A program made the position numbers and the translations under genes. The notes under the pieces were generated by a model. It made no database searches. It was given only the letters and a program-made list of their open reading frames with translations, and was not told the origin of the DNA. Below are positions 48,613 through 62,308 of a stretch of 64,000 nucleotides of DNA, piece after piece. This DNA is from Bacillus sp. FJAT-18017 (GTDB lineage: Bacteria; Bacillota; Bacilli; Bacillales; Cytobacillaceae): positions 971,001 through 1,035,000 of the forward strand of contig NZ_CP012602.1 of the NCBI RefSeq assembly GCF_001278805.1, in the 5' to 3' direction. Position 1 is the first letter of the stretch; every line of letters begins with the position of its first letter.

Positions 48613-49365
48613 TTAGCCTTTTTCTTTTTTGAGCATAAAAAATAGATATACGATGATTAGTAGATAGGTTATAATCCACCCTACAATCAATTGTGTCATT
48701 TCGCTGAAAGAAGTGTGCGACAATAGTAGGGTTGGCAGGTGAAGCGCGATTAAGACTACAAGCATGATGGCGGTTTTAGCCCGAATCGAAAAGAAGACGA
48801 TAAAACCAAGAAAAAGTAAGCCAGTAATGATACTCCCCAAAGTGCCAAAATGTAATACGGGGGTAGGATAAAGTGAATCCGCAATGAGGGTGCCGACAAA
48901 AAAGAACGTACTTATAAATATTGGCACTAGTAAAATTAAAAACTCTTTTATTTTAGAAACTTGATTTCTTGCAGTATAGCGAAAAGCGAACAGTACACCT
49001 CCAAGGAAGAGAATACTATAGACAACCGTTCCTGCAATTTTTAATAGACTATAGTTCAATGTACCTTGCAGAAGATCCCCAAACACAAAATAGGACATAG
49101 CACCAATGATCACGAGAGGAACGTGTTTTGCCCATGCTTTATAATCCGTCTTCATTTCACTGGAGATACTCATCATATACTCCTTTGGGGAACCTCCTAT
49201 AATTCGATCAATCGATTTCCCGTTTACTTCAGCTTCGTATAGGTGATCTTCAAGTTCTTCAGCAATTTCTTTAATTTCTTGATCATTTTTTCCACTAGAA
49301 AACAGGTATAGCCTTAGATCATCAATGAATTTCCTGCTCTTCTCGGATAGTTGAAGTTGTTCCAT
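48613..49365 (-). CDS. Membrane protein paired with PadR (HAAS/DUF1129-like)
   Basis: 250 residues: an N-terminal helical segment (SEKSRKFIDDLRLYLFSSGK, DQEIKEIAEELEDHLYEAE) of the HAAS type that recurs beside PadR regulators, then about six membrane helices. ATG 49365 is used, with GAGGTGAAAAG before it; an upstream frame extension overlaps the padR gene. It overlaps or nearly abuts padR and is probably its target partner. Function unknown. Confidence 0.78.
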   Translation of the reverse strand: MEQLQLSEKSRKFIDDLRLYLFSSGKNDQEIKEIAEELEDHLYEAEVNGKSIDRIIGGSPKEYMMSISSEMKTDYKAWAKHVPLVIIGAMSYFVFGDLLQGTLNYSLLKIAGTVVYSILFLGGVLFAFRYTARNQVSKIKEFLILLVPIFISTFFFVGTLIADSLYPTPVLHFGTLGSIITGLLFLGFIVFFSIRAKTAIMLVVLIALHLPTLLLSHTSFSEMTQLIVGWIITYLLIIVYLFFMLKKEKG

Positions 49366-49375
49366 TCTTTTCACC

Positions 49376-49705
49376 TCATTCATTTCTTTCTTTCTTAATG
49401 GCTGCGTTAACACTTTTCTCTAGCTCATTCCATCTCAGGATAAAATCGGTTAAGGCTTGCTGCCCTTTCGCAGTTAATGAATAGTATTTTCTCTTCGGAC
49501 CAGCTATGGATTCTCTGCGAACAAAAGTGACAAGCCCTTCACGCTGCATTCTCAACAATAACGGGTAAATCGTTCCTTCGCTGATCGTACCAAAACCATA
49601 CTCGCTTAAACGCTCTGCCATCTCATATCCATAACACTCTTTCTCCTTAATAATCGCCAAGAGACACCCATCCAATATCCCCTTCATCATTTGAGTTTCT
49701 GACAT
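49376..49705 (-). CDS. PadR-family regulator 1
   Basis: 109 residues with the PadR winged HTH (GILDGCLLAIIKEKECYGYEM, GTISEGTIYPLLLRMQREGLV and RKYYSLTAKG). It should repress its own operon, which includes the 48613 membrane protein. A palindrome at 49768-49782 is a candidate operator. Confidence 0.88.
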   Translation of the reverse strand: MSETQMMKGILDGCLLAIIKEKECYGYEMAERLSEYGFGTISEGTIYPLLLRMQREGLVTFVRRESIAGPKRKYYSLTAKGQQALTDFILRWNELEKSVNAAIKKERNE

Positions 49706-50023: not shown

Positions 50024-51013
50024 TTACTTCACAGTGGCTCTGGCTTTTTTGAAACCGTCAAACGAATTAACGACTGCGGATACACTAAAGACGATGATAA
50101 TTAAAGAGATTAGCCAAGAATCAATATGCTCGAACTCATTTTTGTAATGTAGAAATTCTGGATTGAATATATTAGGGGTTAGTAAAATAATGAAGAAGAT
50201 CACAGATGCGACAAATTCATGTATGGCGTTTACGATTGCCAATTTTTTCGTCCATTGGCCTTTAATGAATTTATAGACCCACAATCCAATCTCGAAAGCG
50301 ATCAGAGCTGCAACCAATGGCCAGTATTGAAGCCAGATTTCTTGATTGAATACCGGTGCAACGAATGTTAATCCGTCTTTTCCGCCTTCATATATGCCGA
50401 TGAGGTGGTTCGCATAGAAGTAGAGGGTCGCCCATATTGCAGTCCACAATAATCCGAAAAACACTTCAAATTTTGAGATTGCCTTTTTCTTTGGAATATA
50501 GGCGATTGTTTTTAAATTCTCAGGTGTCCATTTCTTAAAAGTTGGAGATAACGGCTGATTATCTTTGTCTTTATCAACCCGCTCTATAATTGCGAAAACG
50601 ACTGTCAACCAAAAGAAAGTCTGCATTGCTACATCAATGATTCTCACAATTCCAAGTCCGATGATATCTAAAACTATATTTATTACCGCTTCCTCGCCAT
50701 TGAATCCGTTTTTATATTCAGCCATCACTGAAATGAAAGCAATCACCGCGGCAATCGGCAAAATCATTTTTAATAATGAAGTATAAACATCATAATAACG
50801 CGGCCCGATTAAATGCATCGGCTGGTCACGATACCCGCTGGCAAGTGCAACCGGGTTACCCATTTTTTGAAGCACTGCTTTCACGTCTTCATCATTGTAA
50901 TGATCAGGCAGCATATCCCCAATGGTGGAACGCAGCTCAAGAGCAATATCCTCGCGACTTTTTTCAGGCAGTCTTCGCGTCACTTCCTGAATGTACACAT
51001 CAATCAGATTCAT
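50024..51013 (-). CDS. HAAS-domain membrane protein paired with PadR 2
   Basis: 329 residues. The N-terminal HAAS domain reads YIQEVTRRLPEKSREDIALEL, GDMLPDHYNDEDVKAVL and MGNPVALASGYRDQPM, with the helical pattern typical of PadR neighbours; seven or so membrane helices follow. AAAGGAGAGG precedes ATG 51013, which overlaps the padR stop by 14 bases, so translation is coupled. Such proteins are thought to act in envelope or membrane stress signalling; function unknown here. Confidence 0.83.
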   Translation of the reverse strand: MNLIDVYIQEVTRRLPEKSREDIALELRSTIGDMLPDHYNDEDVKAVLQKMGNPVALASGYRDQPMHLIGPRYYDVYTSLLKMILPIAAVIAFISVMAEYKNGFNGEEAVINIVLDIIGLGIVRIIDVAMQTFFWLTVVFAIIERVDKDKDNQPLSPTFKKWTPENLKTIAYIPKKKAISKFEVFFGLLWTAIWATLYFYANHLIGIYEGGKDGLTFVAPVFNQEIWLQYWPLVAALIAFEIGLWVYKFIKGQWTKKLAIVNAIHEFVASVIFFIILLTPNIFNPEFLHYKNEFEHIDSWLISLIIIVFSVSAVVNSFDGFKKARATVK

Positions 51014-51347
51014 TTTCTTCCTCTCCTTTGAGCAACTCATAGAGCTCTCTTGAATTTTTTAGCCATTCCTCTTTTAGCTGTGAAAAAATCTCCACTCCAT
51101 AGTCACTTAATACATAATACTTTCGCGGCCTGCTCTCCGACGTGTCCCAACTGCTCGTAACGAGCTCCTGCTTTTCTAACCGGCGCAGAAGCGGGTATAA
51201 GGTGCTTTGGTCAATAATGATATTTGAACTTTCCAGCAGCTGTACTAATGAATAGCCATATTGAGGAGTACGTAACTGACTAAGTACAGCCAATGTCAAT
51301 GTTCCTCTTCTAAGTTCTGTAATCAATGAATTCAGTAAAGTACTCAT
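51000..51347 (-). CDS. PadR-family regulator 2
   Basis: 115 residues: ELRRGTLTLAVLSQLRTPQY, GYSLVQLLESSNIIIDQSTL then YPLLRRLEKQELVTSSW, and RPRKYYVLSDYG, a clear PadR HTH. AAAGGAGGTGTGG precedes ATG 51347. It overlaps the HAAS gene and should autoregulate the operon. A long inverted repeat upstream is its candidate operator. Confidence 0.9.
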   Translation of the reverse strand: MSTLLNSLITELRRGTLTLAVLSQLRTPQYGYSLVQLLESSNIIIDQSTLYPLLRRLEKQELVTSSWDTSESRPRKYYVLSDYGVEIFSQLKEEWLKNSRELYELLKGEEENESD

Positions 51348-51415: not shown

Positions 51416-51560
51416 TGTAGTTCCAATAATAATATAGTTGGGTATGCTACACAATGGCAGATATATTTATTGGATATTTATGTTAAAATTTAAGGGGAGC
51501 CGGGTGAGACTACCAGAAGTATTATAGTTACAGCTTAGACCAGCAATGGAGGCAGGTTGT

Positions 51561-51833
51561 ATGAAAAGTCTGGAGACAGTAGAAGAAAGAGAAAAATGGA
51601 AACGAGTAAAATCCAAAGGTAAGAAAATATATATTTTAAAGTCATTAATTTTATATGAAATCTTTGTATTGATCATTGCCACTATCTATTTGATGTTTGA
51701 TAAACGAGACATCTTCTCCAATTTCCCTTTACTTATTTTCACCTATCTAGTGGCGATAATAGTCTATAGCCCACTGGGAATATGGGTTGGAAATAATAGC
51801 TGGAATGCCAAGGTTAGAAGATTTGAAGAGTAG
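51561..51833 (+). CDS. Small two-helix membrane protein
   Basis: 90 residues: a charged N-terminal stretch (EEREKWKRVKSKGKK) and two hydrophobic helices (LILYEIFVLIIATIYLMF and LLIFTYLVAIIVYSPLGIWV). GGAGGCAG precedes ATG 51561. The family was not recognised. It lies between the PadR unit and the DUF3953 gene. Confidence 0.6.
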   Translation: MKSLETVEEREKWKRVKSKGKKIYILKSLILYEIFVLIIATIYLMFDKRDIFSNFPLLIFTYLVAIIVYSPLGIWVGNNSWNAKVRRFEE

Positions 51834-52314: not shown

Positions 52315-52343
52315 ATAGGTAATTTCTACTAATTTTACCTATT
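52315..52343. promoter_or_regulatory. Inverted repeat upstream of the peptide gene
   Basis: ATAGGTAA and TTACCTAT are perfect 8-bp arms with a 13-bp gap, followed by an A/T-rich promoter region about 80 bp before the 25-aa peptide gene. It is a candidate operator; a weak terminator role for the previous gene is also possible because T residues follow. Confidence 0.5.
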
Positions 52344-52425
52344 TATATATTTTTTTATAAAAAAAGGAAGGTGGGTTAAACTTTTTGTAGAATATTCTAA
52401 TTAATCGAAAAAAGGGGGTGTAAAA

Positions 52426-52503
52426 ATGAAAATAACAGCAAAAAAGGTAGAAAAAGTTAAGGCAACAAAAGACCTTGATATGTGTTTCGGTAGTGTTTGT
52501 TAA
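52426..52503 (+). CDS. Putative RiPP precursor peptide (25 aa, ends CFGSVC)
   Basis: ATG 52426 is preceded by AAGGGGGTG (52411-52420), one of the best sites in the window, and the frame closes at TAA 52501. The product is a Lys-rich 16-residue leader-like part (KITAKKVEKVKATK) and a short core ending DLDMCFGSVC, with Cys at positions 20 and 25, the last residue. It is not among known bacteriocin families I can name. The next two genes encode an E1-like enzyme and a membrane protease, both with PqqD-like peptide-recognition domains. A precursor role is inferred from this context and the hairpin that follows. Confidence 0.72.
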   Translation: MKITAKKVEKVKATKDLDMCFGSVC

Positions 52504-52534
52504 TTAATTTTATGTAATCCATTTAAGAGATATT

Positions 52535-52566
52535 GAAGGGCCATTTGGTCCTTCTTTATTTCATAT
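52535..52566 (+). terminator. Attenuator-like hairpin after the peptide gene
   Basis: GAAGGGCC-ATTT-GGTCCTTC (52535-52554, one G-U pair) is followed by TTTATTTC. A weak terminator here would give more peptide mRNA than enzyme mRNA, as in many precursor-peptide operons. Confidence 0.65.
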
Positions 52567-52590
52567 TTACAATAAAGCGAGGAACATAAT

Positions 52591-53757
52591 ATGGTATATA
52601 AACCAAAATTCAATCCAATGTATCTTTATCACTTTATTACAAAGAACGAATTAAGAGTAGGAATAACTCCTGATAAATTGTTTGAAATCATAGATGAAAC
52701 AGGTTCTATTCATCGTCTAATTACACTGATGGACGGTAAAAAAAGTGTTGCAGAAATAGCTAACATTATTAGAAATGAGTTTAGTGAAATTAGCCTGGAA
52801 GAAGTCGAGATAGCCATTCAAGATTTTAATGAGATGGGATTCTTAATTCATTCTGACAAAGACCAACATGACCTAAATGAAAGGGAATTAGAAAGATTTA
52901 CAGGAAATATTAATTATATTTCACACTTCTGCCCGCCCAACCAAGACCCTGCCCTATTTCAACAAAAAATTTCTAATTCCAAAGTGACAATAATAGGAAT
53001 GGGCGCATTTGGTTCCAGCTTGCTTATTAACTTAGCTGGTTTAGGTGTAAAGAATGTTAAAATTATTGACTTTGATACTGTGAGCTTAAGCAATTTAAAT
53101 AGACAATTACTTTTTAATGAAAAGGATATTGGGCGACCAAAGATAATAGCTGCCAAGGAATTTATGAAGTTGTTCTATTCTGATATGAATATTGAGACTT
53201 TCGATCTGGAAATTAGAGATTCGCTTTCCATTGAACAAATAATTAAGGATTCAGATTTAGTTATCTTAGCTGCGGATCAACCTTATTTATTACTTCCAAG
53301 ATGGGTAAATGAGGCATGTGTTAAGCTTAATATCCCCTTCATTGCAGGCAGTATAAATATAAAAATGGGAATGCTATATACCATTATTCCCCATGTGTCA
53401 GGGTGCGTAGATTGTATGCATTTGAATAACTGGAAGGAATCAGATAATTATTATTCAAAAGTAAATCATTTTCTTGACTTAAATTTCATTCCTGCTAACA
53501 TGGCAACTGCCCCAAATTTGATGATGATTACAGGCATGATAAGCTCGGAAATTTTTAAACAGCTAACAGGCTTAAATGAACCAAAATCTGCTGGCAAAAT
53601 GATCATGTTTGACTTCGAGACATTTGAATCTTCCATTTTAACTGAATGGGAAATTGACAAGGAATGCCCTACATGTGGCTCAAGTGGACAATTGAATCCA
53701 CTGTTCCAACTGTTTAATCAAAAAGAATATTCTATGCGTCGCGTAGTGATGCGCTAG
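52591..53757 (+). CDS. E1/ThiF-like adenylating enzyme with N-terminal PqqD/RRE-like part
   Basis: 388 residues. Residues about 20-90 (DKLFEIIDETGSIHRLITLM, KSVAEIANIIRNEFSEISLE) form a winged-helix/PqqD-like peptide-binding domain. The ThiF/MoeB/E1 core follows: IIGMGAFGSSLLINLAGLG (ATP loop, about 136), IDFDTVSLSNLNRQLLF (nucleotide Asp and Arg finger), then zinc pairs CVDC (about 272) and CPTC (about 358). Such enzymes adenylate peptide C-termini, as MccB does for microcin C. The likely substrate is the Cys-terminal peptide upstream. Starts at ATG 52591 behind GCGAGG. Chemistry is inferred. Confidence 0.82.
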   Translation: MVYKPKFNPMYLYHFITKNELRVGITPDKLFEIIDETGSIHRLITLMDGKKSVAEIANIIRNEFSEISLEEVEIAIQDFNEMGFLIHSDKDQHDLNERELERFTGNINYISHFCPPNQDPALFQQKISNSKVTIIGMGAFGSSLLINLAGLGVKNVKIIDFDTVSLSNLNRQLLFNEKDIGRPKIIAAKEFMKLFYSDMNIETFDLEIRDSLSIEQIIKDSDLVILAADQPYLLLPRWVNEACVKLNIPFIAGSINIKMGMLYTIIPHVSGCVDCMHLNNWKESDNYYSKVNHFLDLNFIPANMATAPNLMMITGMISSEIFKQLTGLNEPKSAGKMIMFDFETFESSILTEWEIDKECPTCGSSGQLNPLFQLFNQKEYSMRRVVMR

Positions 53758-53766
53758 GAGAAAAAT

Positions 53767-54999
53767 ATGGAAATTACAAAAGATTGTGTATTCAAAATGC
53801 ACAAACTTGAAAAGCGCAAGGAGAATGAAGAGGAATTTTTAATAGGAAGGCCAGATGTTAGCGACTTTGTTATACTACCTAACTTAGCAATAGAAATTAT
53901 AGAATTATTAGATAGCGGATTAACAGTAAGCGAAATAGAAAAAGTAATGGCCGAAAAAGAAATAGATGTAGACGTAATGGATTTTGCTTCGAGTTTAGTA
54001 AATGATTTACTCTTTGTCCATATGGTAAATGGTGTTGTTGTAAATGAGGTAGTAAACGACAATGGACATTTTGAAAATATTTCAGAACATACGGCAAAAA
54101 GATTTTTTAATAGATTTGCCTTTGGAGCCTATTTACTTTTATTTATTGTCGGTGTTTCTTTTTGCCTTTACGACCATTCCTTTATCCCGAAATACCAGGA
54201 TGCCATTGTATTTCCTTCTGTTACGTTATCACTAATCATTTCAACAGCGATTGGATGGGTGTTAATTTTCACCCATGAATTTGCTCATTTATTAGCAGCA
54301 AAATCTCTTAGTGTCAAAAGTAAAATTGGTTTAGGCCATCGTTTGGTTTTTCCCGTTGCTGAAACAGATATGTCTAATATTGTCCTTCTGCCACACAAAA
54401 GAAGATATAAGGCTCTGATTGCAGGAATGGCATGGGATGGGGCCCTTTTTGGATTAGGGGTATTTGTATTATTTTTAGGAAACTATGTTATAGAGTTAGA
54501 TATATACTTTTTAAACTTAATTAAATTGATTAACCTTATTTGTGTCTTGGGAATAGCGTTTCAGTTCTTTTTTTATTTAGAAACCGATATTTATTACGTA
54601 CTCACTACATTTTTTAAATGTAACAATTTAATCCATAATACCAGACTTTATGTGAGGATCTTGACAAAGAGAGCAAATCTGGAACAAAAGTTAGAATTTG
54701 AAAATATTGATTTAACTGAAAAGAAAATTATGAAAGGGTATATATGGATTTATATTATAGGTGTAATTTGGGCAATAACGTTATTCATGACCGTTACTCT
54801 ACCGACGTTTATCAAATTTGTCTCTTTAACCCTTGTAAAAATGTTTAATAATCCATTCTTCTCGAGAGAATTTTTCGATGGCATTATCTTTATTCTTCTC
54901 TCAAGTATACCTTTTATAATTTTAGGTTGGTCTTGGTATAAGACTTGGAAGACAAATCAGAGCAGAAATAATAGAAGAGTTTCTTCAGAAGCTATATAA
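53767..54999 (+). CDS. Membrane M50-type metalloprotease with PqqD-like N-terminus
   Basis: 410 residues. Residues about 25-95 (LPNLAIEIIELLDSGLTVSE, MDFASSLVNDLLFVHM) resemble PqqD. The rest has about seven membrane helices. Zinc site HEFAH (about 169-173, in FTHEFAHLLAAKSL), with YLETDIYYVL (about 271) at the place of the DGYY third-ligand motif of peptide zinc metalloproteases such as the YydH type. It starts 10 bases after the E1 gene (AGGAGAAAA). It probably cleaves or releases the modified peptide at the membrane. No transporter gene is adjacent. Confidence 0.8.
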   Translation: MEITKDCVFKMHKLEKRKENEEEFLIGRPDVSDFVILPNLAIEIIELLDSGLTVSEIEKVMAEKEIDVDVMDFASSLVNDLLFVHMVNGVVVNEVVNDNGHFENISEHTAKRFFNRFAFGAYLLLFIVGVSFCLYDHSFIPKYQDAIVFPSVTLSLIISTAIGWVLIFTHEFAHLLAAKSLSVKSKIGLGHRLVFPVAETDMSNIVLLPHKRRYKALIAGMAWDGALFGLGVFVLFLGNYVIELDIYFLNLIKLINLICVLGIAFQFFFYLETDIYYVLTTFFKCNNLIHNTRLYVRILTKRANLEQKLEFENIDLTEKKIMKGYIWIYIIGVIWAITLFMTVTLPTFIKFVSLTLVKMFNNPFFSREFFDGIIFILLSSIPFIILGWSWYKTWKTNQSRNNRRVSSEAI

Positions 55000-55049
55000 A
55001 TTCCTATTCCGGTCCATAACTTCAGAGAACAGCTTATAAATAATAGACT

Positions 55050-55083
55050 CTAAACCTCTTATCAGGCTAAGAGGTTTTTTAGT
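55050..55083 (+). terminator. Terminator of the peptide locus
   Basis: AAACCTCTTA / TAAGAGGTTT stem followed by TTTTTT. Confidence 0.85.
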
Positions 55084-55178: not shown

Positions 55179-55357
55179 TTATTCTAACTGGGGATTTACT
55201 AATTCTGTGCTGGTGATAGTCATTTTTCGCATCAGTTCACGCCTAAGTTTTGGAGCAAGACAGCCTTCAAACAATAACTTGAGATAATTCAGCCGTAATA
55301 CATGCCACTGCTATTTGAACTTAAGGAAATAACTCAAACCGCCATCACCCCACAACA
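55179..55357 (-). pseudogene. Degenerate copy of the WHxLR small-protein gene
   Basis: The minus strand reads SYFLKFK-stop-QWHVLRLNYLKLLFEGCLAPKLRR, aligned to the intact paralogue at 55824 (YFQRVKRQWHVLRMKYLKLL). An in-frame TAG replaces an Arg, and the tail is diverged. Confidence 0.7.
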
Positions 55358-55823: not shown

Positions 55824-55970
55824 CTAATGAGTAATTCTCTGCTCGTGATAGTCTATTTTCAGCAAGAGTTGTTGTTTAAGCTTTGAATCAAGACAGCCAT
55901 TAATCAATAACTTGAGATATTTCATCCGTAACACGTGCCACTGCCGTTTCACTCTTTGAAAATAACCCAC
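55824..55970 (-). CDS. Small WHxLR...GCLD family protein
   Basis: 48 residues from GTG 55970, behind GGGGGGTG. QRVKRQWHVLRMKYLKLLI, then NGCLDSKLKQQLLLKIDYHE, ending QRITH. Basic and amphipathic, no membrane helix. It is related to the 62496 gene (WHSLRLRYHAILLEGCLDTK) and to the relic at 55179. Bacillus genomes carry similar short proteins, without known function as far as I know. Confidence 0.62.
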   Translation of the reverse strand: MGYFQRVKRQWHVLRMKYLKLLINGCLDSKLKQQLLLKIDYHEQRITH

Positions 55971-60082: not shown

Positions 60083-62308
60083 GTGTTTGATTTGAAAGAT
60101 TTTCGCCAAAACAAACTTAAGATGACCCAAGAAGAGTTTGCGAAAATGATTGATGTTCGTCAAGATTACATCTCGAGAATTGAAAAATCACCTGGCTCGA
60201 TTGATTTCAACTTATTGCTAAAAATTGCGGATGCTACAGGAACTTCCCTAGATGAACTCGCCGGATACAAAAAGTCTCTTCCAGAAGCATTAGTAGTAAG
60301 TAATACGTGGGATGCTTCTAAGCGTTTTAAAGACAGTATTCTTAGCTATATTACAACGAAAAAAACAGATTTAAAGATTAGTGAAAAATATGAAAAGATG
60401 ATTGATGAACTACTAAATTTGGTTACTTCTACTTTGGTAAAACCTAAAGTTGCAGTTGTGGGGATGTCAGATGCCGGAAAAAGTAGGCTTATAAACTCAC
60501 TTCTAGGCATGGATAAAATACCAACGTCATGGACTCCTACTACTTCCATAAGTATACATATCAGACACGTAGATGACCGACCTACATTCATGGATGAAGA
60601 AGCTTGGATTTTTAAAGGTGACAAAGATGGATTTGATTCAAAAAAGTTAGATGATGAAGTTTATTGCAAACAGAGAAAAATTGCCGGTGGAAATGCGGGA
60701 ATACTTTCAGAATACGGCACTAGGCAGGGAGATAAATACGATTTAGATGATGCCGCCGCTGCAGTCGTGTATTTGGATAGCCCTATCTTGCAAATTTGTG
60801 AACTCGTTGACCTACCGGGGTTTGGTACTGGAGATCGAAAGAATGATGATATTTTAGCACGTAAATCGAGGGAGTTTGCTGATGTTGTAATCTACTTATC
60901 TATTGCAAATGGATTCTTAAGGGGAACGGATATCGAGTTTTTAAAATCTACACTTAACTCCCTTAGAGTCATCGAAAACCCTATTAATAATTTGGAACCA
61001 CTCTCCAACCTATTCATTGTAGCTTCCCAAGCTCATACTGTGAATAATGGTAGCAAATCGGATTTAGAAACAATTTTAGACGGAGGGGCTAAACGTCTGT
61101 TTAATGAGATTCCAGAAGAAATATGGGAAAACAGGCAAGAACAGGCCGGTTGCAAAATAACACTTGGTGATTTAAGAAAACGTTTCTTTACCTATACCAC
61201 GGATAAGCCATACTTACGAGCGGATTTTGAAAGTAATCTAGCACAATTGCTAGAGTGTTGGTCATCTAATGTAATTTTTCCATCCATAAATACCATTCAT
61301 TCGTTTTTGGAGGACAGCCAAACTGGGCTGGACTATGATATAGCGGAATATGAAGGTATATTAAAAGAGCGTGAAATTCACAGGGCTCGTGCTGAACAAA
61401 TCGAGAACGCAGAGCCTGAAAGACAAAGAACGATGCAAAAAAAAAGAAGCGCCGTAGATCAAAAAATAAAAGAGTTTCACGAAGAAACCAAAAAAGAATT
61501 CTATGCTGAATTTTATTCCGTCATTACAGTGGACTATATCGTAGACCTAATCAAACAAAAAGGATATAAAAAGAAAAAGGACGACATGGAAAGGTTAGCT
61601 GGATTTTTAAGTAGTAAGCTTCAAGGGAAACTACAAAATGTATTAAAGCATAAAACAAAAGAGTTAAATGAAGTTATTAACGAGTACTTGGAAGATTTCA
61701 CTGCTGAAATTACTAAGTTCAAAAATCCACAATTAAAAGGGTTTGACATTCCTTTTGATGCTGTCAAAATATTTGCGAGTGGTTTGGCTGGGCTTGCGAC
61801 CTTCGGAGGTCTAGCTATCTGGGCAAGTACGTTAGGAAACTTAGGCGCTTATATTTTAGTAGCGAAAGGAGTAAGTGTGTTATCGGCTCTAGGAATATCA
61901 GTAGCAGGAGGTACTGCAGGTGCGGCTTCAGCGGTAGCCGCATTAGGAGGGCCTGTTACTTTGGGTATTGCTTTGGCAGTTATTGTGGGTATTTCAGTCT
62001 TCGCTTTAATTTCTGGCGGTTGGCAGAAGAGCGTAGCAAAAAAGATTGTAAAAGAATATGAAAAGAATCAAGCATATGAACTGTATGCTACAGAAATCGA
62101 TAACTTTTGGAACAGTACTAAAGTTGAGTTTGAGACTGCAGCAGATCATTTAGAAAAGGAATGGCACCAATATGTCCATAACTTAAATAATATGGTCACC
62201 TCTTACTCTGTAAATGATATTTGCGATTGCATCGACTCTGCGAAAGAGATGAAAGATTTTTTAGTCCGAGTACCATTAAAAGAGCCACTATTAATAGAGG
62301 CGTTATAA
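60083..62308 (+). CDS. XRE HTH domain fused to a dynamin-like GTPase
   Basis: 741 residues, GTG start behind TAGGAGG. Residues 1-65 are an XRE/lambda-repressor-type HTH (KMTQEEFAKMIDVRQDYISRIEK). The GTPase has a P-loop GMSDAGKSRLINSLLG (about 128), TPTTS as switch I, DLPGFG (about 242) as G3 and a weak G4 (VASQAH). A long helical stalk follows. About residues 562-645 are hydrophobic and Gly/Ala-rich, fit for membrane insertion, as in bacterial dynamins. Dynamin-like proteins remodel membranes; some protect from phages. Single gene, strong terminator after it. Function is inferred. Confidence 0.8.
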   Translation: MFDLKDFRQNKLKMTQEEFAKMIDVRQDYISRIEKSPGSIDFNLLLKIADATGTSLDELAGYKKSLPEALVVSNTWDASKRFKDSILSYITTKKTDLKISEKYEKMIDELLNLVTSTLVKPKVAVVGMSDAGKSRLINSLLGMDKIPTSWTPTTSISIHIRHVDDRPTFMDEEAWIFKGDKDGFDSKKLDDEVYCKQRKIAGGNAGILSEYGTRQGDKYDLDDAAAAVVYLDSPILQICELVDLPGFGTGDRKNDDILARKSREFADVVIYLSIANGFLRGTDIEFLKSTLNSLRVIENPINNLEPLSNLFIVASQAHTVNNGSKSDLETILDGGAKRLFNEIPEEIWENRQEQAGCKITLGDLRKRFFTYTTDKPYLRADFESNLAQLLECWSSNVIFPSINTIHSFLEDSQTGLDYDIAEYEGILKEREIHRARAEQIENAEPERQRTMQKKRSAVDQKIKEFHEETKKEFYAEFYSVITVDYIVDLIKQKGYKKKKDDMERLAGFLSSKLQGKLQNVLKHKTKELNEVINEYLEDFTAEITKFKNPQLKGFDIPFDAVKIFASGLAGLATFGGLAIWASTLGNLGAYILVAKGVSVLSALGISVAGGTAGAASAVAALGGPVTLGIALAVIVGISVFALISGGWQKSVAKKIVKEYEKNQAYELYATEIDNFWNSTKVEFETAADHLEKEWHQYVHNLNNMVTSYSVNDICDCIDSAKEMKDFLVRVPLKEPLLIEAL

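Follow-up and report, generated by a model that had tools for sequence, protein, structure and literature searches.

Bacillus sp. FJAT-18017 carries a three-gene operon on the + strand of the 64,000-nucleotide window analysed here (NZ_CP012602.1, 971,001-1,035,000, forward strand), and all coordinates given below are positions in that window unless another locus is named. The operon spans 52426-55077 and consists, in order, of a short gene encoding the 25-amino acid (aa) peptide MKITAKKVEKVKATKDLDMCFGSVC, a hairpin, a gene for a ThiF/E1-like enzyme, a gene for an M50 metalloprotease and a terminator (Table 1). The original prediction gave the right coordinates and read the region as a locus for a ribosomally synthesized and post-translationally modified peptide (RiPP), a reading borne out by conserved leaders in the precursor peptides, RiPP recognition elements (RREs) on both enzymes and the co-occurrence of ThiF and M50 genes. 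It is very probable that the locus is a RiPP operon in which the ThiF-like enzyme and the protease have the roles proposed below, an estimate that extends neither to the thiolactone nor to signalling.

Table 1. Positions of the operon's features in the window.
Feature	Positions	Strand	Basis
Ribosome-binding site (RBS) GGGGGTG of the precursor gene	52414..52420	+	
Precursor peptide gene, 25 aa, MKITAKKVEKVKATKDLDMCFGSVC, ends CFGSVC	52426..52503	+	Open reading frame (ORF) and homologous precursors
Terminator/attenuator-like hairpin in the precursor-ThiF gap, GAAGGGCC-ATTT-GGTCCTTC then TTTATTT	52535..52554	+	
ThiF/E1-like adenylyltransferase, 388 aa	52591..53757	+	Pfam, AlphaFold model, PaaA/MccB matches
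N-terminal RRE of the ThiF protein (PqqD-like; three strands then three helices), about residues 1-90	52591..52860	+	
Adenylation domain of the ThiF protein, about residues 97-365	52879..53685	+	
M50 (site-2 type) membrane metalloprotease with N-terminal RRE, 410 aa	53767..54999	+	
RRE of the M50 protein, residues 7-89	53785..54033	+	
Site-2 protease core, residues about 150-345; HEFAH at 54274-54288	54214..54801	+	
Intrinsic terminator closing the operon	55052..55077	+	z -3.1

The short gene is strongly initiated, as first proposed, with GGGGGTG and a five-base spacer preceding its ATG. Across 13 leader codons, the window gene and its counterpart at the homologous locus L049 differ by seven synonymous changes and one non-synonymous change, and the preponderance of synonymous changes indicates that the short ORF is translated and its leader is under selection. 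The original prediction called for a conserved short ORF upstream of homologous ThiF-M50 pairs, and the surroundings of homologous ThiF genes were surveyed in 59 regions (the window, L049-L073 and L107-L139). An M50 profile matches 45 of these regions, the weak match in L057 (1.1e-07) included. A leader-type ORF with an RBS lies no more than 700 bp upstream in 39 of the 59 regions and in 35 of the 45 with an M50 match, compared with 7 of 1108 equal windows taken elsewhere in the same regions on both strands; the regions are not independent, since nine carry a common precursor, ...VRTTAVAA. On the strength of the excess of synonymous changes and the difference from the control, a chance ORF was rejected.

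The leaders of 34 distinct precursors fall into one register with the pattern K-I-x-x-[KRS]-K-x-E, in which M1, K2 and K7 are invariant, I3 and E9 occur in 33 precursors, and T14 occurs in 32. This set omits the shifted leaders of L055, L058-L063 and L067, the precursors of L052-L054, L056, L057, L070, L108, L125, L132 and L134, the second peptide of L118 and one further peptide of L142. In the window peptide the leader would comprise residues 1-14 and the core about residues 15-25. The cores of the 34 precursors are 4-12 residues long (six residues in 14 of them), hypervariable in sequence and without a fixed end, the last residue being G in 11, V in 9, C in 4, S in 3 and others in the remainder. 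Some loci carry arrays, with five precursors in each of L064 and L066, while L142 has nine precursor ORFs beside two ThiF genes, their cores being of seven distinct kinds and mostly rich in Ala. L055, L058 and L067 each possess three identical precursors (...VPQLRPGT) and a ThiF gene flanked on both sides by genes for family-5 solute-binding proteins, along with M50 and major facilitator superfamily (MFS) transporter genes. A ThiF clade formed by L052, L053 and L054 has an MFS transporter gene and no M50 match; its precursors end in SFPG/SFLG, GIPG and GFPG and have leaders similar to those of the family.

The attenuator-like hairpin described in the original prediction has a z-score of -6.5 against 200 shuffles. 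A strong hairpin of unrelated sequence occupies the same precursor-ThiF gap in 20 of 23 loci as judged by eye (it is unclear in L063, L065 and L073), the shuffles covering the window and L049.

The Pfam ThiF family matches the window enzyme with an E-value of 1.6e-51. Among solved structures, a profile of 40 relatives matches PaaA first (7.9e-57) and MccB next (1e-54), and the AlphaFold model (mean pLDDT 93.4) matches the same two proteins over both domains with TM-scores by target length of 0.84 for PaaA and 0.82 for MccB. Among solved structures the enzyme thus groups with PaaA and MccB, not with a known non-peptide family, and by analogy with them it is expected, as originally proposed, to activate a peptide carboxylate, most likely the C-terminus. 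R171, K184 and D229 are invariant in 38 aligned sequences (36 of 99 proteins plus two genome loci; the 40 relatives come from the same 99), and their spacing of 13 and 45 residues is that reported for R167, K180 and D225 of EnfB, a protein that is not itself in the alignment. Two CxxC pairs (272/275 and 359/362) are also invariant in the 38 sequences, and C243, which aligns with a Cys of MccB, is present in 37 of them. Residues 13-81 of the model form three strands and three helices in the RRE arrangement. Pfam PqqD matches this protein weakly (E 0.016, 15.9 bits against a cut-off of 23.4) and is found in 10 of the 40 relatives at E <= 0.05, with PaaA-like_N in 5 of the 40. At positions 6202-8538 of L135, ThiF and M50 occur in one 778-aa ORF downstream of a precursor ending in FIPYPG, which could reflect a gene fusion, the loss of a stop codon or a mistake in the assembly.

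The match of Pfam M50 to the third gene product is weak (E 0.0019, 18.1 bits against a cut-off of 27.2). H170, E171 and H174 are nevertheless invariant in an alignment of 26 sequences (26 of 30 relatives), and the AlphaFold model contains an RRE fold followed by a site-2 protease (S2P) core with an HExxH motif, resembling M50/S2P proteins. Pfam PqqD does not match the window M50 protein; it matches 5 of the 26 aligned sequences at E <= 0.05, and NCBI gives several of the M50 relatives the name 'PqqD family protein'. The two PqqD-like N-termini of the original prediction are thus weak or absent by sequence in the window proteins and are recovered as RREs in the relatives and in the models, which for both enzymes match solved RRE-bearing proteins. 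NCBIfam daptide_HExxH matches 9 of the 26 aligned M50 proteins at E <= 0.05, the window protein not being among them.

Several observations weigh against reading the locus as a RiPP operon. By the script's rule, 10 of the 45 M50 regions have no leader-type ORF within 700 bp upstream. The ThiF-M50 pairs of L120-L122 have no recognizable precursor upstream, and the same is true of L126, L129 and L136; in L120-L122 the precursor may be lost, divergent or located elsewhere. L056 and L070 have precursor candidates that fall outside the rule, L123 has a precursor and a broken ThiF gene, and L128 begins near a contig end. Foldseek returned no match for the M50 model at E <= 0.001, and in a Pfam scan of 17 neighbouring proteins of the window no transporter match rose to its cut-off. 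A 95-aa ORF at 51546-51833 gives a weak match to ABC2_membrane_3 (17.6 bits against a cut-off of 31.6).

Judged by the sequence and model features tested, the operon belongs to the ThiF-like-adenylyltransferase (TLAT) RiPPs. The features found are an adenylation domain with the ATP-site Arg, Lys and Asp, an N-terminal RRE on a ThiF protein that matches MccB over its whole length, and a short precursor gene with a conserved leader beside the enzyme. TLAT RiPPs, as described in the available text of PMC12250964, resemble the window operon in their short precursors, RRE-ThiF fusions, EnfB-spaced ATP-site residues and small operons, whereas here the usual partner is an RRE-bearing M50 protein, the leaders form a family of their own and the cores are hypervariable. 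TLATs form a growing group of RiPP enzymes, and each characterized one carries out a different chemistry on the activated carboxylate.

Of the individual systems, the ind cluster (IndA/IndF/IndP) is alike in combining a precursor and a ThiF-like enzyme with a metalloprotease that removes the leader. It differs in that IndP is an M16 protease, the core NWYFI acquires a Trp-Ile indolylamide and the cluster includes a transporter (PMC12150305, available text); the window peptide has no Trp and the window protease is of the M50 type. Enterofaecin (EnfA/EnfB) likewise has a short precursor, of 21 aa, with the basic leader motif (V/I)RKA, but is described with several transporter genes (PMC12250964), and its WWIVI/WWIII type of core contrasts with the Cys-based CFGSVC of the window. 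That type occurs only in two enterofaecin-like relatives in the tree, L057 (WWIIF) and L134 (WWIII). In both, the gene after ThiF encodes a membrane protein of 300-307 aa with HELMH or HEYMH, and membrane proteins with HExxH may therefore be further partners of this type of TLAT. GRC RiPPs (GrcA/GrcB) share a ThiF-like enzyme and a C-terminal Cys, which in their case yields a thiolactone. They differ in having a 39-aa precursor with Glu at -4, two radical S-adenosylmethionine (SAM) enzymes and a standalone RRE (PMC12250964), whereas residue 21 of the window peptide is Phe and Pfam found no radical SAM enzyme in the three-gene operon or among the 17 neighbouring proteins, a set that does not take in every window ORF.

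Microcin C (MccA/MccB) and pantocin A (PaaA) provide the closest solved enzymes, yet the window peptide ends in Cys and lacks the C-terminal Asn of MccA, and the operon has no further tailoring gene. Membrane M50 proteases are known from RiPP pathways, including EpeP, TglG and TmoG (PMC10885120, available text), and EpeP/YydH, TglG, TmoG and the daptide HExxH protease are alike in being M50 proteases dedicated to a RiPP; here the protease is paired with a ThiF enzyme. Nitrilobacillins are not a parallel, their enzyme being asparagine-synthetase-like (PMC13060819, available text). The original prediction also knew of no described RiPP class with this exact gene set. The combination of precursor, RRE-ThiF protein and protease is in fact known (PMC12150305, PMC12250964), so this part was too strong, while the pairing with an RRE-M50 protein was not found in print. 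No published ThiF and RRE-M50 RiPP pair and no account of this precursor family was found in a search that covered most papers as listings and did not reach subscription papers or supplements, including that of PMC12150305, in which further ThiF clusters are shown. In PMC7157772 and PMC4979651 the term 'M50' stands only within the DOIs of references. The new parts are the RRE-M50 partner and the leader family, which may already be described in subscription papers or supplements.

Taken together, these comparisons suggest a mechanism in which a leaky terminator would let the cell make more of the 25-aa precursor than of the enzymes. The ThiF protein would hold the basic leader MKITAKKVEKVKAT by its RRE and adenylate a carboxylate in the core, with the C-terminus as the likeliest one given the homology of the enzyme to MccB and PaaA. 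In the clade that includes the window, the thiol of Cys20 would be the likeliest nucleophile, forming a six-residue thiolactone to Cys25. The RRE-bearing M50 protein would bind that leader in turn and cleave close to T14, so that a short peptide with a modified C-terminus would be set free and perhaps also exported. A part for this protease in export is thinkable because EpeP is thought both to cleave and to export its peptide (PMC10885120).

The thiolactone step would depend on the cysteines. In the tree, the window enzyme falls in a seven-row clade (100/99) in which two rows are identical. All three loci of this clade with a readable precursor have a Cys end and a second Cys five or six residues before it, the ends being CFGSVC in the window, CMGSPVC in L049 (whose ThiF protein is identical to P0006 of Bacillus sp. 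THAF10) and CPGLGSC, in two copies, in Fictibacillus macauensis; the precursors of P0004, P0007 and P0008 could not be read. In the sister clade, L118, a locus whose letter make-up was flagged in the tree analysis, has two precursors ending in ...AICVDC (from ATG) and ...AECVAC (from TTG), and its neighbours end in MDQVNV, AVAA, LLNAT, ATPPSLY or VFTSNV or show no precursor. The Cys pair is kept wherever the end is Cys, and the acidic neighbours are kept less well, which favours attack by a Cys thiol on the activated C-terminus over a reaction of the GrcB type. From sequence, the ring from the Cys20 thiol to the Cys25 C-terminus is the leading guess for the window clade, although its chances fall somewhat short of even. 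Conservation of the terminal Cys also counts against it to some extent, as a thiolactone needs no Cys at the last position and a further role for this residue is hinted at.

Thiolactone formation as the chemistry of the whole family is ruled out by the cores AVAA (nine regions) and AAAGIAAV, which offer no side-chain nucleophile, and side-chain cyclization can therefore not be family-wide. For the family, either the reaction depends on the core, as it does among IndF, EnfB, GrcB, PaaA and MccB, or it is independent of side chains; adenylation is the predicted first step in both cases. The strongest competitor of the thiolactone extends the second option to the window itself, with an EnfB-like backbone imide, amidation or another acyl transfer taking place at the C-terminus throughout the family and the two cysteines of the window peptide only forming a disulfide or binding metal. 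Besides the AVAA and AAAGIAAV cores, it draws on EnfB, for which one acyl adenylate leads either to an imide or to an amide (PMC12250964), and on the WWIIF and WWIII precursors that lie beside relatives of the window enzyme. A reaction blind to sequence would not, however, require a kept Cys pair, yet all three readable window-clade loci and both L118 precursors keep two cysteines, one of them terminal. This explanation is a substantial possibility but, on balance, a doubtful one.

A second way to a thiolactone would follow GrcB, which links Glu35 to the C-terminal Cys39 (PMC12250964), with the thiol of the terminal Cys attacking an activated side chain of D16 or D18. The three closest precursors do keep D16, with D or E at 18, but the window peptide has Phe21 in place of an acid at -4. 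Of the L118 precursors, both with two cysteines, one has as its sole core acid D19, which lies beside the terminal Cys, and the other has E16. The grc cluster, moreover, contains two radical SAM enzymes that have no equivalent among the window proteins scanned. The GrcB-like route is accordingly improbable.

It is very unlikely that the operon makes a microcin C-like Trojan-horse inhibitor by attaching a nucleotide to the end of the peptide. MccB does head the structural matches, and Bacillus amyloliquefaciens produces a cytidine microcin C from a 19-aa precursor (PMC12250964), but MccB acts on a C-terminal Asn (PMC12150305), an end found in none of the 34 precursors, and the operon lacks a further tailoring gene. 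The chances are slimmer still that the peptide end becomes a thiocarboxylate through ThiF/ThiS-like sulfur-carrier chemistry, which the ThiF fold and the GG ends of some relatives' precursors might suggest. A crossover-loop Cys is a feature of that chemistry. None is conserved in the 38 sequences, where the conserved cysteines are the CxxC pairs and the residue aligned with the MccB Cys, and on this ground sulfur-carrier chemistry was rejected; in addition, the operon has no sulfur donor gene and the window peptide ends in Cys, not Gly-Gly. An E1-like protein of anti-phage defence or housekeeping, preceded by a short ORF that arose by chance, was rejected as extremely unlikely, since the PADLOC E1-E2 models that match the ThiF domain (best E 1.2e-16, residues 124-284) recognize mainly the shared ThiF fold, and since a RiPP locus is indicated by the RRE, the conserved leaders and the M50 partner.

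By analogy with relatives, the operon likely functions in signalling or competition, because the cores are hypervariable and sometimes arrayed and because a gene for a helix-turn-helix-tetratricopeptide repeat (HTH-TPR; RRNPP-like) regulator adjoins relatives in three lineages. These are L064, L066 and L069, which belong to one genus, L067, and L068, whose regulator matches RNPP_C. Regulators of the L064 type have one or two homologues per genome at 1e-10 in that genus; the regulators of L067 and L068 are not closely related to it. The link is one of adjacency, and L064, L066 and L069 have other neighbours in common besides the regulator. No HTH-TPR regulator lies beside the window operon, which counts against a signalling role there and makes signalling an extension from the relatives. 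A PadR-type regulator gene is located about 1 kb upstream of the operon on the other strand. RRNPP signals are about the size of the six-residue cores. ThiF or radical SAM loci occur in 11 of the 21 regions that surround rgg genes in Streptococcus thermophilus and in 6 of 20 in S. salivarius (PMC12445099, available text).

If the thiolactone is right, the pathway would share a thiolactone and a membrane endopeptidase with AgrB/AgrD, but the enzymes are unrelated and activation here would use ATP in the cytosol; the membrane protein resembles M50/S2P, and no AgrB family is among the Pfam matches. Cytosolic, ATP-driven ring closure by an MccB-like enzyme, followed by release and export through an RRE-guided intramembrane protease, would then constitute a second, unrelated route to an Agr-like peptide, an unlikely but conceivable outcome. 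It would amount to a minimal three-gene signal or weapon, patchily spread, with the hypervariable cores as private dialects which in some lineages the adjoining HTH-TPR receptor reads. Were the peptides signals, RRNPP-type sensing would gain chemically modified ligands. The family looks like a little-explored group of modified bacterial peptides, with many natural precursor variants (Cys, GG, Ala-rich and Pro-Tyr cores) on one leader and a conserved enzyme pair, so that rules of nucleophile choice become testable with short synthetic peptides.

The locus is accessory and was possibly acquired. At 1e-50 the ThiF profile has no hit in the seven remaining genomes of the genus and hits 6 of 193 across the family, one of these being the genome of the window; at 1e-90 the window's own genome is the only one found in a phylum-wide sample of 398. 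A search of viral contigs returned one distant relative with 33% identity. The three 1-kb steps of the locus have a GC content of 31-34%, compared with 37-50% in 12 of the 15 remaining steps from 44 to 62 kb and 31-36% in the other three (58-61 kb). Between 51800 and 55600 no Rfam family matches at E <= 0.1. No good promoter is evident, with 11 promoter-like sites observed and 15.7 expected, and an inverted repeat upstream at 52316-52343 is weak (z -1.6). Just 3' of the operon, a 115-bp stretch at 55222-55336 is repeated at 55855-55969 with 75% identity and may be decayed mobile DNA. Two adjacent gene pairs on the - strand, at 48613-49705 and 50024-51347, each encode a PadR-type regulator together with a HAAS-domain protein, and the 741-aa protein encoded at 60083-62308 oddly combines HTH_3 at its N-terminus with a GTPase domain of the dynamin type.

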